A stretch of 64,000 nt of DNA. Origin: Haloferax litoreum. GTDB taxonomy: Archaea; Halobacteriota; Halobacteria; Halobacteriales; Haloferacaceae. Both the position numbers and the translations under genes were made by a program. The DNA lies in NCBI RefSeq assembly GCF_009674605.1, contig NZ_WKJO01000001.1, positions 2,728,001 to 2,792,000 of the forward strand. The letters are read 5' to 3'. The notes under the pieces were generated by a model, which did no database searches, was not told the DNA's origin, and saw only the letters and a program-made list of their open reading frames with translations. Below, one piece after another: positions 5,570 to 41,101 of the stretch; within the stretch, counting starts at the first letter, position 1, and every line of letters starts with the position of its first letter.

Positions 5570-5977
5570 ATGACCTCGTGGAAACACTTCGTCGCGTTCT
5601 TCGTGTTCGGGTCGCTGGTACTCGTCGGTGTTGCCCTCTTCGTCGTCCACGTCGACTACGACTACCACTACACGTACGAACGTGAGGTGGACGAATTTCC
5701 ACGTGACACACTCACGATGGAGTACGCAGCACTCCAGCCCGACGAGCGACGAGTCGTCGACGAGGCGTTCGAGACTGGCGGTGTCGTGATGCAAGACGGG
5801 TCGACGATACCGGATGAAGGAATCAAAAAAGATGGCCACAAGTACCTGTTTTCGGCCTACAAATCGTTCGACTGGACCGACCCCGGAACGTTCGGGCCAA
5901 CATTCGTCGGACTCGTCGGCGGGTTCGGCGTCCTCGCGACCATCAGGGCTGACATGAAGAACTCGTTGATTCGGTGA
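5570..5977 (+). CDS. Small membrane protein, haloarchaeal, unknown function
   Basis: 135 residues from the ATG at 5570; a GTG five codons upstream is possible. A strong hydrophobic segment spans about residues 6-27, then an extracytoplasmic or cytoplasmic middle part rich in Tyr, Asp and Glu, and a second hydrophobic segment near 110-128 (GPTFVGLVGGFGVLATI). The two-helix topology with a soluble loop of about 80 residues gives no clue to function, and I recognise no catalytic motif. It converges on the NhaC gene, with only 14 bp between stops. Base composition is like its neighbours. Confidence 0.7.
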   Translation: MTSWKHFVAFFVFGSLVLVGVALFVVHVDYDYHYTYEREVDEFPRDTLTMEYAALQPDERRVVDEAFETGGVVMQDGSTIPDEGIKKDGHKYLFSAYKSFDWTDPGTFGPTFVGLVGGFGVLATIRADMKNSLIR

Positions 5978-5991
5978 GGACGCCCGTGAGG

Positions 5992-7446
5992 TCAGTCGTC
6001 TGCGGGACTCGCCGGTGCGTCCCCTGCTCCCGTCGCGTTCCCGGCGAACCCGACTCCTGCGAGCACGAAGGCGAACAAGACGAGTGGCGAGAGATAGCCG
6101 AACAGGTAGTACGGGGCGTACGAGAGCGTCGCCACACCGAGGACGCCCGACATGTACGCGCCGCCTGCGTGCCACGGGAGGAGTGCACCCGTCGGCGTCC
6201 CGGCGGATTCGATGGCCTGCGAGAGGTCCGAACTGTCGAGGCCGAACTCGTCGTAGGTGTTCCGGAGCGTCATGCCCGGCACGACGATGCTCATGTACTG
6301 TTGGGCGGTGAGCGCGTTAGTCAGAATCGCGGAGACACCAGTGGCGGCGACGAGCGACCCAGTACTCCGAACGCCGCGTTCGAGGCGGTGCGCGAGGACG
6401 GCGAGGACACCCGTCTGTTCGAGGAGACCACCGAGGGTTAGCGCGGCGACGACGATGGCGATGGTCCACGCAGACCCGGAGACGCCGCCGGCGGCGAGGA
6501 GACTGTTGACGAGGTCAGACCCCGTCTCGGGGCTGGTTCCGCGCATGAAGACTTGCCACGCCGTGACGAACGTGGTGCCCTGAACGAGGAGACTCGTGAA
6601 GGCACCAGCGAACGCGCCGGCGAGGAGGACGTTGAGTGCCGGATAGCCGGCGGCGGCGAGGCTGAAGGTGACCGCGAGTGGGAGGAACGCGAGGAGTGAG
6701 ATGTTGTACGAGGACGCGAGTGCGGTCTGAATCTCGTTGATTTGGCCGGCGGGAATCGACCCAGAGAAACCGAGGCTGAGGACGACGAACCCGACGACAG
6801 AGAGACCGAACGCGAGCAGCGTTCCGTTGCGCATCGCGCGGATGTGCTCGTAGAGGTCGGTGTTCGTCACCGCCGCGGCGAGGTTCGTCGTGTCCGAGAG
6901 GGGCGACTGCTTGTCACCCGCGTACGCGCCGGTGAGGATGGCACCGGCAGTCATCGGTTCGGGGACGCCGAGTCCAGACCCGATGCCGATGAACGCGACA
7001 CCGAGTGTCCCGACTGCCGTCCACGACGACCCGATGGCGAACGTGGTGACGCCGACGAGGATGGCCGTCGCCGGCAGGAAGATTTCCGGCGTGAGCAGGT
7101 CGAGACCGAAGTACATCAGCGTCGGAATCGTCCCGGCGGAGACCCACGTCGCGACGACGCCGTAGATGATAAACAGGATGAGGAGCGCTTGCAGACCCAT
7201 CGAGAGGCTTCGCTCGATACCCTCGTAGAGGTCCGTCCACGTGTAGCCCCAGACGTATCGGCCGAGGAGGCCGACGAGTGCGATACTCCAGATGAGCGGG
7301 ATGTGCGGGTCGAGTTTCAATACAGCGGACCCGATGCCGAGGAACGCGACGAGACCCAAAACCGGAACCAGCGCCTGCAGGAAACTGGGGCGCGTCTCCG
7401 GGGAGAGGTCCTCGAACGACCGCGGCGTGTAACTGTCTGTTCTCAT
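5992..7446 (-). CDS. nhaC: NhaC-family Na+/H+ antiporter
   Basis: 484 residues with about eleven or twelve membrane helices. Family marks include FAIGSSWTAVGTLG and the polar YAGDKQSPLSDTTNLAAAV loop, which in NhaC proteins lies in the ion pathway. Such carriers exchange cytoplasmic Na+ for external H+; some relatives carry organic acids or amino acids. The ATG at 7446 has a TATA-like AATTTTAT (7472-7479 on minus) centred about 29 nt upstream. It is transcribed alone, divergent from the VWA/MoxR operon. Confidence 0.88.
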   Translation of the reverse strand: MRTDSYTPRSFEDLSPETRPSFLQALVPVLGLVAFLGIGSAVLKLDPHIPLIWSIALVGLLGRYVWGYTWTDLYEGIERSLSMGLQALLILFIIYGVVATWVSAGTIPTLMYFGLDLLTPEIFLPATAILVGVTTFAIGSSWTAVGTLGVAFIGIGSGLGVPEPMTAGAILTGAYAGDKQSPLSDTTNLAAAVTNTDLYEHIRAMRNGTLLAFGLSVVGFVVLSLGFSGSIPAGQINEIQTALASSYNISLLAFLPLAVTFSLAAAGYPALNVLLAGAFAGAFTSLLVQGTTFVTAWQVFMRGTSPETGSDLVNSLLAAGGVSGSAWTIAIVVAALTLGGLLEQTGVLAVLAHRLERGVRSTGSLVAATGVSAILTNALTAQQYMSIVVPGMTLRNTYDEFGLDSSDLSQAIESAGTPTGALLPWHAGGAYMSGVLGVATLSYAPYYLFGYLSPLVLFAFVLAGVGFAGNATGAGDAPASPADD

Positions 7447-38313: not shown

Positions 38314-38451
38314 ATGCTCCAACTCGGACCGCTGGACACGCTCATCCAGACGTTCGGGCCGTTCGTCATCCCGGTCGTGCTGTTCGCTCTCGGACTCGTC
38401 GGGTATCTCCTTCTTCTCGTACTCGGACGAACCGGACGGGGCAGCGACTGA
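38314..38451 (+). CDS. 45-residue single-span membrane protein
   Basis: A short frame from an ATG at 38314 to a TGA at 38451. One hydrophobic helix (about residues 15-37: FVIPVVLFALGLVGYLLLLV) is flanked by a short N-terminal part and a basic RTGRGSD end. It follows mscS by 40 bp and may be co-transcribed. Codon use is haloarchaeal (GC at third positions). Small single-helix proteins are common but easily missed. No function is known; a role with MscS is only a guess from position. Confidence 0.6.
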   Translation: MLQLGPLDTLIQTFGPFVIPVVLFALGLVGYLLLLVLGRTGRGSD

Positions 38452-38538
38452 CCAGACTCCGCCCCACCCGGGAACCGAGCAGAATGCCAGCATCGTCGCA
38501 CCGGGAGAAACAGAACACGCCGGTGCCGCGTGTCCCGA

Positions 38539-40992
38539 TTACTCTTCGACGACGACGGTGCCGGTCATGCCCGCCGCCTCGTGCGGGATGCAGAGGTACG
38601 CGTGCTCACCGGCCGTCTCGAAGGTGTGGACGTAGGATTGGCCGGATTGCACAGCACCCTCGCCGTCGTCCCACCCCGCTTCGGCGGCCTCCTGCGACTC
38701 GAAGCCACCGGATGCCCAGTACGCGGCACCTTTGGGGAGGCCACTCTCGGAGGCAGTCGCGGTGTGTGCTTCGCCCGCCGTATGTTCGAAGGCGACAGTG
38801 TCGCCGACCGTCACCGTCAGCTCCTCGGGTTCGAAGGCGACGGCCGTCAACTTCACCACGTGGTCGGCGTCCTCGGGGACGCCTTCGACGACGTTGGGAC
38901 CGCCGGTCAGCTTGGTTTCACCGTCGCCGTGACTGTGGTCGTGCGACGAGTGGTCGATGGGTGCCTCGTCGGCGGCACCGACCACTGCGAACTGCGCGCG
39001 AAGCGTCGACGCCGCGTAGGCGTTGGCTGACGTATCGACGTCGGCACCCTCGTCGAGTGCGTCGACGTAGGTCGAAAGCGCCTCCTCGAACCCTTCGTAG
39101 GCCTCGTGGTCCGATTCTTCGAGCGTCTCGTGGACACGTGCGCCTTCGAACGTCTCGAACACGCCGCTCATGTGTTCGGATGCGGTGGCCGAGAGACCGG
39201 CGTCCGCGGCGGCGGTTGCGACGACGGCGTACATCGAGTCGATGGATTGCTGGTTGTAGGTCTTAGCCGCGCCGTAGGCGTCGCCGTCTTCCTCGGCCGC
39301 CATTCGAATGCCTCCGAGTGCGCCTTCGAACGACTCATAGAGGTCGTGGTCGGCGTGTTCGAGTGCTTCGTGATAGCCGCCGGCACCCTCCTCGAAGAAC
39401 GAGAACGTCTCCTGTACGACTGCGGCGGCACGGTCGGTCGCCCCGACCTGTGCGAGGCCAGCGGCGTCGAATCCGCGGGCACCGAAGAACGCCGCTTCGG
39501 CGGCCGACACTTCGGCAGTCGTCCCGACGGCAGTCTCGAACTCGAAGAGCGCGTCCATCGCGCCTTGCGCGTGAGTCACCGCCGACTCGGAGTCACCGGC
39601 TTTCGTGGCGTCGACGAGGCCTTCGAGGTGTTCCTCTTCGAAGCGGTGGTAGAGGTCTTCGGACTCGTGTTCGATGGCTTCGTGGAGGTTCCCCTCGTTC
39701 TCTTCGAAGCGGGCGAAGAGGCCCTCTGCGACAGATGCGGCGCGGTCGGTGGCACCGAGAGCGACGAGTTCTCGGGCGTCGGCGAGGCGGGCACGGAAGA
39801 ACGCCGCTTCGAAGAGTGTCGCCGAGTCGCCACCGGTGAGGGCCGAGACACCAATGAGGAGGTTGTCGTCTACGGTCTGGAGTGCGTCTTCGGTGGCCGC
39901 GAGGTCACCCGACTCGGCCGCTTCTTTGAGTGATTCGAGGCCGCCTTCGAAGCCTTCGTAGGCGTCGTGGTCTGCGTGTTCCAGTGCTTCGTGAGCGCGT
40001 GCACCCTCGAAGTGGGCGTAGATGTCGCCCGCGAGCGTCGCGGCGAAGTCGGTCTGCCCCTGTGCGACCAGCCACGCAACGTCGGCGGCGCGGGCGCGGT
40101 ACAGCGTGAGTGCCGCGGCGTGGGCGTACTCGTCACCGGGACCACCGAGGCCAGCGAGGACTTCTGCGTCGAATCCGACCGACTGCATGAGCGCGAGGTG
40201 GCCCGCACCGGCGACAGACTTCGGAGCGACTTCGTAACTCGCGTCGACCATCGCGGTGGCGGCGTTCCGCGAGGATTGCTGAATCGTGCTCGCGTCGTTC
40301 GCCTCCGCCGCGCCTTCGATTCCAGCCTCGAACGTCTCGTAGAGTTCGCTGGACGCGTCTTCGATGACTTCGTGTGCGGGTGCGTCCTCGAACGATTCGT
40401 AGACACTGTGTGCGAGTTCCGCGGCGGCCGCTGCCTCGCCGGCGGCGGCGAGCATCTCCACGTCGCGGGCGCGGGACGCGAAGGTGTAGAGACCGAGTGC
40501 GTCGACCACAGCAGGGTCGACGCGGCCACGCTGAGCGGCGAGGAGGTTGTCCGACGCCTGCATCGCGAGGTCGATTCCCTCGTCGGCGTGTCCGTCCGAG
40601 AGGGCAGTTGCCGCGGCCCCGAGGTGTTCTTCGAACGTCTCGTAGTTCTGCTCGTTCGTCGCTTCGAGTTGCTCGTGTGCCCCCCACTCGCCGGAAGACT
40701 GCTCGAACCGGGCGAACACGTCTTCGGCCACGCGTCCCGCAGTTCCCAGTCGTCCGGCGGTGGCGAGCGCAACCGAGTCGTACAGACGGGCGCGCATCGC
40801 GTTCCACTCGGCGGCCACGGCAGTCGTCGCGTCGACGGTCACAGACGACTCGGCGTCCGTCGTCTCGGCGTCTTCTGTCGACTGCGTGGTGGTCGCCGTC
40901 GATTCTTCAGACTGACTGCTACAACCCGCGAGACCGGCGGACGCGACCGCCAATCCCGTCGTCTTCAAGAGTGTCCGTCGGGAATAGCCCAT
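38539..40992 (-). CDS. Tat lipoprotein with six helical HE.(L/I)E repeats and a cupredoxin domain (DUF5059-like)
   Basis: 817 residues. The Tat motif SRRTLLK and lipobox LAGC (C24) place it outside the membrane. Six similar helical units follow, each with a (H)E.(L/I)E motif near residues 106, 207, 334, 437, 541 and 621, for instance HEALEHADHDAYEGFE. A His-rich linker (681-691, HSSHDHSHGDG) leads to a C-terminal halocyanin-like cupredoxin domain with ligands in EHTAGEAHTATA (H737/H743) and YLCIPHEAAGM (C801, H804, M809). The helix-plus-cupredoxin layout recalls the iron-uptake protein EfeO, but over six units; metal capture is inferred. The haloarchaeal label DUF5059 is from memory. Its promoter carries metal boxes (40996-41101). 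Confidence 0.8.
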   Translation of the reverse strand: MGYSRRTLLKTTGLAVASAGLAGCSSQSEESTATTTQSTEDAETTDAESSVTVDATTAVAAEWNAMRARLYDSVALATAGRLGTAGRVAEDVFARFEQSSGEWGAHEQLEATNEQNYETFEEHLGAAATALSDGHADEGIDLAMQASDNLLAAQRGRVDPAVVDALGLYTFASRARDVEMLAAAGEAAAAAELAHSVYESFEDAPAHEVIEDASSELYETFEAGIEGAAEANDASTIQQSSRNAATAMVDASYEVAPKSVAGAGHLALMQSVGFDAEVLAGLGGPGDEYAHAAALTLYRARAADVAWLVAQGQTDFAATLAGDIYAHFEGARAHEALEHADHDAYEGFEGGLESLKEAAESGDLAATEDALQTVDDNLLIGVSALTGGDSATLFEAAFFRARLADARELVALGATDRAASVAEGLFARFEENEGNLHEAIEHESEDLYHRFEEEHLEGLVDATKAGDSESAVTHAQGAMDALFEFETAVGTTAEVSAAEAAFFGARGFDAAGLAQVGATDRAAAVVQETFSFFEEGAGGYHEALEHADHDLYESFEGALGGIRMAAEEDGDAYGAAKTYNQQSIDSMYAVVATAAADAGLSATASEHMSGVFETFEGARVHETLEESDHEAYEGFEEALSTYVDALDEGADVDTSANAYAASTLRAQFAVVGAADEAPIDHSSHDHSHGDGETKLTGGPNVVEGVPEDADHVVKLTAVAFEPEELTVTVGDTVAFEHTAGEAHTATASESGLPKGAAYWASGGFESQEAAEAGWDDGEGAVQSGQSYVHTFETAGEHAYLCIPHEAAGMTGTVVVEE

Positions 40993-40995
40993 ACT

Positions 40996-41011
40996 TTTAG
41001 GCCAGCCTAAA
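40996..41011. promoter_or_regulatory. Metal box 1: TTTAGG-CCAG-CCTAAA
   Basis: Perfect inverted repeat between the start codon (40992) and the TATA-like element of the cupredoxin gene, overlapping the expected transcription start. It resembles DtxR/SirR-type iron or manganese boxes. A repressor here would block initiation. Confidence 0.65.
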
Positions 41012-41031: not shown

Positions 41032-41047
41032 TTTAGGTCTGCCTAAA
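41032..41047. promoter_or_regulatory. Metal box 2: TTTAGG-TCTG-CCTAAA
   Basis: Second perfect copy of the box, 36 bp (start to start) from box 1 and upstream of the TATA-like element. Paired sites suggest cooperative binding of a DtxR/SirR-type regulator. Confidence 0.65.
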
Positions 41048-41085: not shown

Positions 41086-41101
41086 TTTTGGTCCTCCTAA
41101 A
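41086..41101. promoter_or_regulatory. Metal box 3 (degenerate): TTTTGG-TCCT-CCTAAA
   Basis: Third copy, one arm mismatched at one position, 54 bp from box 2. It may be a weaker site or the operator remnant of a lost divergent gene. Confidence 0.4.

Follow-up and report, generated by a model that had tools for sequence, protein, structure and literature searches.

To our knowledge, how iron is delivered to the haloarchaeal cell surface is poorly understood. A described protein with a comparable layout is EfeO, in which a cupredoxin (PF13473) is placed before a single M75 domain with an HxxE motif, and which acts within the EfeUOB system alongside the permease EfeU/FTR1. In EfeM, the ligands of site III are Tyr82, His126, Glu129, Glu189 and Asp190 (PMC9174327). 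SmbP (SMBP; PF16785, PDB 3u8v) is a metal-binding protein consisting of a single four-helix bundle, and the halocyanins and plastocyanins (PF00127) carry His-Cys-His-Met ligands in a cupredoxin fold. Finally, the haloarchaeal family PF16502 (DUF5059) is already catalogued, with no function assigned. Its members include HVO_1228 of Hfx. volcanii (hcpE in PMC9051519) and ‘hcpG’ of H. mediterranei, and both have the same architecture as the protein described here. In the accessible text of the papers naming DUF5059 members, the repeat architecture, the invariant residues and the conservation of the promoter are not described, though the gene could already be named as a target in work on haloarchaeal DtxR regulons. 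Going by the accessible papers, a repeat site combined with a near-universal DtxR-type promoter appears not to have been reported before.

Gene and protein architecture

We analyzed a 64,000-nucleotide stretch of the Haloferax litoreum genome (hereafter the window), in which one gene encodes an 817 aa protein with the following features.

38539..40992, minus strand: complete gene for a DUF5059 + cupredoxin lipoprotein (open reading frame; PF16502 and PF00127 matches)
40921..40992, minus strand: Tat-type signal and lipobox, residues 1-24, with Cys24 (RR pair and AGC both invariant across homologues)
40519..40830, minus strand: repeat 1, residues 55-158; E97, H106, E107, E110, Y117, E121 (invariant, 45/45)
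40225..40518, minus strand: repeat 2, residues 159-256, degenerate in many homologues (profile E 6e-15)
40141..40224, minus strand: extra helix between repeats 2 and 3, residues 257-284, with invariant D275 (model and alignment)
39832..40140, minus strand: repeat 3, residues 285-387; D304, E329, H334, E338, Y345, E349 (45/45)
39523..39831, minus strand: repeat 4, residues 388-490; D405, E430, H437, E438, E441, Y448, E452 (45/45)
39199..39522, minus strand: repeat 5, residues 491-598; D509, E534, H541, E542, E545, Y552, E556 (45/45; E542 44/45)
38962..39198, minus strand: repeat 6, residues 599-677; E616, H621, E625, Y632, E636 (45/45)
38917..38961, minus strand: His-rich linker, residues 678-692 (not conserved)
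38542..38904, minus strand: cupredoxin, residues 697-817, with type-1 copper ligands H743, C801, H804, M809 (45/45)

The N-terminus (MGYSRRTLLKTTGLAVASAGLAGC) contains a Tat motif and a lipobox ending in Cys24 (...LAGC24). It is followed by a low-complexity stretch of Thr, Glu and Asp, the helical domain (to about residue 677), the short linker, and the cupredoxin. In Pfam, PF16502 matches residues 57-677 (E 1.6e-260; 866.7 bits against a curated cut-off of 25) over positions 1-619 of the 619 in its profile, and PF00127 matches residues 713-815 (E 3e-14). An earlier reading made from the sequence alone had described a new six-repeat lipoprotein ending in a cupredoxin. The open reading frame, the six repeats, and a cupredoxin with its full set of type-1 copper ligands were all confirmed. 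As a full-length member of PF16502 the gene itself is not new, and what survives of that claim is that the family has no assigned function.

This is the only DUF5059 gene in the host genome, and it stands by itself, with a xanthine/uracil-type permease gene upstream (same strand) and a mechanosensitive channel gene past the 3′ end (opposite strand). A small convergent ORF just past the 3′ end (38315-38452, plus strand) likely encodes one transmembrane stretch (MLQLGPLDTLIQTFGPFVIPVVLFALGLVGYLLLLVLGRTGRGSD, judged by eye).

Helical repeats and copper domain

The protein contains six copies of the motif FE.{3,9}H...E.{5,7}Y..FE (at residues 96, 201, 328, 429, 533, and 612), compared to a mean of 0.0001 across 20,000 shuffles. 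A profile built from repeats 1, 3, 4, 5, and 6 of nine species, with repeat 2 left out, recovered all six repeats of the window protein, the weakest being the unused repeat 2. This agrees with the description in the sequence-only reading of a similar helical unit per repeat with (H)E.(L/I)E and Y-rich FE segments.

Across 45 homologues from many haloarchaeal genera, the F, E, H, E, Y, and E of repeats 1, 3, 4, 5, and 6 are present in every sequence. The sole exception at the second F of the motif is a Tyr, which five sequences have in repeat 6. Helix A also keeps an Asp, in 45/45 homologues for repeats 3, 4, and 5 and in 44/45 for repeat 1; in repeat 6, Val591 stands at its position. Repeat 2 is decaying, with H207 kept in 27/45 homologues and E211 in 34/45. 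Outside the seven invariant columns, different repeats within one protein are 27% identical, whereas the same repeat compared across species is 48% identical (nine species in each case), so the repeats were duplicated before the sampled genera split, each then being held to the same residues.

The AlphaFold2 model built with the 45 homologues has a mean pLDDT of 90.4 and a pTM of 0.67, and repeat 4 folded alone reaches 97.7 and 0.90. Each modelled repeat is made up of helix A, helix B, a short H-E-x-x-E helix, a longer Y-x-x-F-E helix, and helix D (residues 55-78, 82-98, 105-112, 114-132, and 136-157 in repeat 1). As we read the model, the H, E, Y, and E at i, i+4, i+11, and i+15 would lie on one helix face, with a break in the helix between E and Y. 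Ferric and ferrous iron are classically bound by carboxylates, His, and Tyr. An invariant set of such residues on an outer-surface protein, together with its resemblance to EfeM site III (Tyr, His, Glu, Glu, Asp; PMC9174327), argues strongly that the repeats carry a candidate metal site.

Searching the repeat fold against the PDB gave no match at E ≤ 0.001, and the weak matches were four-helix bundles alone (PsbQ, SMBP, and designed bundles). The best sequence match to the repeat was 8e1e (E 0.0008), which is apparently a designed bundle, and the match looks compositional. SmbP appears in both the fold and the sequence scans, with weak likeness (Foldseek E 0.096; best Pfam E 0.0013, in 4/45 single repeats). 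PF16785 had no match up to E 1 in the scan of the full protein, and the window protein falls outside that family.

EfeO and the window protein are both extracytoplasmic and iron-linked, with an all-helical acidic/His domain joined to a cupredoxin. The sequence-only reading had compared the two and proposed a structural comparison with M75/imelysin, and neither the Pfam searches nor the structures bore this out. PF09375 (M75) has no match in the protein or anywhere in the host genome, hhalign against E. coli EfeO gave a probability of 0.1-0.2%, and no M75 structure was among the top 50 fold matches. EfeO has one M75 domain placed after a PF13473 cupredoxin, whereas the window protein has six small bundles placed before one of PF00127. 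The spacing also differs (HxxE in M75 versus an invariant H-x3-E, or i+4, in the repeats), and the EfeU/FTR1 permease family (PF03239) that EfeUOB includes is absent from the host genome. On the Pfam and hhalign results, the order of the domains, and the spacing of the motif, homology to EfeO/M75 is rejected. The window protein is not an EfeO; the resemblance is one of analogy, and it may work in a similar way.

In contrast to ordinary halocyanins, which share its fold and copper ligands, the window protein has a 620-residue repeat domain. The cupredoxin itself has the His, Cys, His, and Met of the type-1 blue copper family (PF00127), and its top 50 Foldseek matches were all plastocyanin, pseudoazurin, or amicyanin. 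The His-rich linker that precedes it, and that the sequence-only reading had noted, is present in this species. However, 30/45 homologues have no His at this position, so the linker is ruled out as a metal site and a functional role for it is unsupported. Its pLDDT is below 50 at residues 682-692.

Promoter boxes and probable iron-starvation control

Three boxes lie upstream of the gene.

40997..41010, no strand assigned: DtxR-type box 1, TTAGGCTGGCCTAA on the gene strand, start -18 (57/57 homologues)
41033..41046, no strand assigned: DtxR-type box 2, TTAGGCAGACCTAA, start -54, 36 bp from box 1 (51/57 homologues)
41087..41100, no strand assigned: third box with one mismatch, TTAGGAGGACCAAA on the gene strand (also in the loci L041 and L044)

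The boxes at 40997 and 41033 are perfect and the one at 41087 has one mismatch, where 0.16 would be expected. A TATA-like TTTTAT lies between boxes 1 and 2. The box sequence is identical to the leftmost 14 bases of the DtxR consensus TTAGGTTAGCCTAACCTAA from the literature (PMC7762939). Among homologues with readable promoters, the box TTAGGNNNNCCTAA is found at -17 to -22 in 57/57 (54 perfect, 3 with one mismatch), and a second box lies 33-37 bp further upstream, across the core promoter, in 51/57, again with a TATA-like stretch between the two. The remainder of the homologue loci has 34 perfect matches in 813 kb. Within the window, only one of 245 long ATG-started frames, the DUF5059 gene, has a box just upstream. 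The ‘metal boxes’ that the sequence-only reading had noted in the promoter are therefore real, and the gene has a conserved inverted-repeat box at its core promoter, as in a DtxR-type iron regulon.

Elsewhere in the host genome, two PF01497 siderophore-type binding-protein genes share this paired layout: their two boxes are separated by 36 bp and begin about 55 and 19 bp ahead of the start codon. Single or variant boxes also precede an operon of an ABC binding protein and a two-domain permease, and a ZIP transporter gene. The other host cupredoxin genes found (L001, L002) were not among the box sites. When one mismatch was allowed, the genome-wide count of boxes was not above that of a reversed-pattern control; the argument rests on the perfect box pairs, on where they lie, and on their being conserved from one species to the next, not on the genome-wide count. 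The host genome encodes two PF02742 regulators, and its full-length DtxR-family regulator scores best against an MntR model, below the cut-off. A perfect DtxR-type box also precedes a gluconate-2-dehydrogenase-subunit-3-like gene that is followed by a GMC oxidoreductase (L011 906-1490, near C1:2704200), making the former a candidate, if unexpected, member of the iron regulon.

Two published transcriptomes give expression data for the Hfx. volcanii orthologue, HVO_1228. PMC7714728 lists it as up 4.2 log2 on splicing endonuclease knockdown, among the ten most induced genes and alongside the siderophore cluster (iucA/B/D) and iron ABC genes. PMC9051519 lists it as down 2.9 log2 in a cas1 fen1 deletion strain, where iucA, dat, bdb, and an iron ABC gene fall with it. 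Neither paper, in the text available, ties HVO_1228 to iron, and the gene goes unmentioned in the main text of the proteome study of iron-starved Hfx. volcanii. Taken together, the conserved boxes, the paired layout found at siderophore-type genes, and the Hfx. volcanii expression make predicted iron-starvation control of the DUF5059 gene well supported.

Proposed function and distribution

With the promoter switch of iron-uptake genes, the DUF5059 gene probably encodes an iron-handling protein that is made when iron is scarce. Our best reading, from sequence and predicted structure, is an extracytoplasmic multi-site iron-binding and redox protein. More fully, it would be induced by iron starvation and anchored to the membrane, would bind metal, iron being the likeliest, at five to six equivalent sites along a chain of small helical bundles, and would exchange electrons through its cupredoxin. 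We give this account a slightly better than even chance (roughly 0.55). The proposed electron partner of the cupredoxin is either the repeat sites or a respiratory partner. Of the iron or copper acquisition role suggested by the sequence-only reading, a metal-related extracytoplasmic lipoprotein, probably for iron acquisition, is kept, since its boxes are common to iron-uptake genes, and copper as the regulated metal is dropped.

The sequence of events would be as follows. At low iron, a DtxR-type repressor would leave the two boxes flanking the core promoter, a step strongly suggested by the conservation of the promoter sequence. The protein is predicted to be exported through Tat and tethered by Cys24. 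The E...H...E...Y...E set of each repeat would then hold an iron ion on the outer face, as the invariance of these residues suggests for five to six sites, and the cupredoxin, with its intact copper site, may change the oxidation state of the iron or move electrons. Speculatively, ABC-type binding proteins for iron that belong to the same regulon could then take over the iron.

A bolder version is possible, though doubtful. Here the protein would be a haloarchaea-specific extracellular string for iron trapping or ferroxidation. Its tandem four-helix bundles, related to neither ferritin nor imelysin, would provide as many as six independent E/H/E/Y/E iron sites with electrical coupling to the type-1 copper domain of the lipoprotein, and it would give the archaeal cell surface a general means of capturing iron.

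The strongest rival, which we consider unlikely, is an iron-sparing electron carrier, a copper-based replacement for iron-containing carriers at low iron in which the helical string would serve chiefly as a stalk or docking platform. The complete type-1 copper site and the induction together with iron-starvation genes are both as this predicts, and PMC6267482 lists the orthologue hcpE among the halocyanins, which are mobile electron carriers. It accounts for the copper domain and for the regulation but leaves the invariance of the repeat residues unexplained, as a stalk or platform has no need of an E/H/E/Y/E set held in five repeats.

Alternatively, what the repeats bind could be heme or a siderophore, as an organic ligand of iron, and not bare ions, with the copper domain reducing or releasing the iron. 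The regulon is common with siderophore-type binding proteins, and the repeats contain His and Tyr, which are common heme or ferric ligands. However, five or six near-identical acidic sites suit metal ions better, and no heme-binding Pfam family matched the protein, making this quite improbable. A copper or manganese acquisition or buffering protein is very unlikely: the invariant copper domain, the MntR-like score of the host regulator, and the ZIP gene with similar boxes point that way, but the paired-box genes of the host encode siderophore-type binding proteins and the expression of HVO_1228 follows that of siderophore biosynthesis genes.

If the repeats of this putative iron-binding redox protein do bind iron, they would represent an all-helical iron-binding module with no detected relation to M75, present as a tandem array fused to a copper domain for electron transfer. 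The protein is a widely spread, strongly conserved candidate that is genetically tractable (HVO_1228 in Hfx. volcanii), and it offers a clear prediction for a family known only as a DUF.

The family is patchily distributed, found in 18 of 393 sampled genomes of the phylum, all within the window organism’s own order. When named genomes were scanned, about 70 haloarchaeal loci came up, among them loci in Halobacterium salinarum, Haloarcula, Natrinema, Halorubrum, and Haloferax. There were no free-standing single repeats among 295 genomes of the phylum, where profile matches were confined to DUF5059-bearing genomes. An all-against-all comparison of open frames in 70 flanks, noisy from shadow frames, identified no family-wide neighbour and no iron permease or other iron gene conserved beside DUF5059. 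One recurrent neighbour pair, at nine loci, looks unrelated to iron by eye.

Short forms of 503-523 aa (L106 7856-9364, L107 5995-7503, L109 7671-9179, and L104 3138-4706) have canonical sites in the first and last repeats only. In the short Halopiger and Halobiforma forms these are repeats 1 and 6, so high capacity is not essential. Each of these Halopiger and Halobiforma forms has just one promoter box, and at the copper site of the Halopiger form that was checked, the axial Met appears as Gln. In both genera, a small separate gene for a Tat lipoprotein cupredoxin lies just upstream of the short DUF5059 gene.

L106 about 5950-6382: small Tat lipoprotein cupredoxin gene
L109 about 5890-6322: small Tat lipoprotein cupredoxin gene

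At the one locus checked for this, in Natrinema thermotolerans (L137 10646-11905), an Nramp metal transporter lies ~2 kb downstream of the DUF5059 gene.
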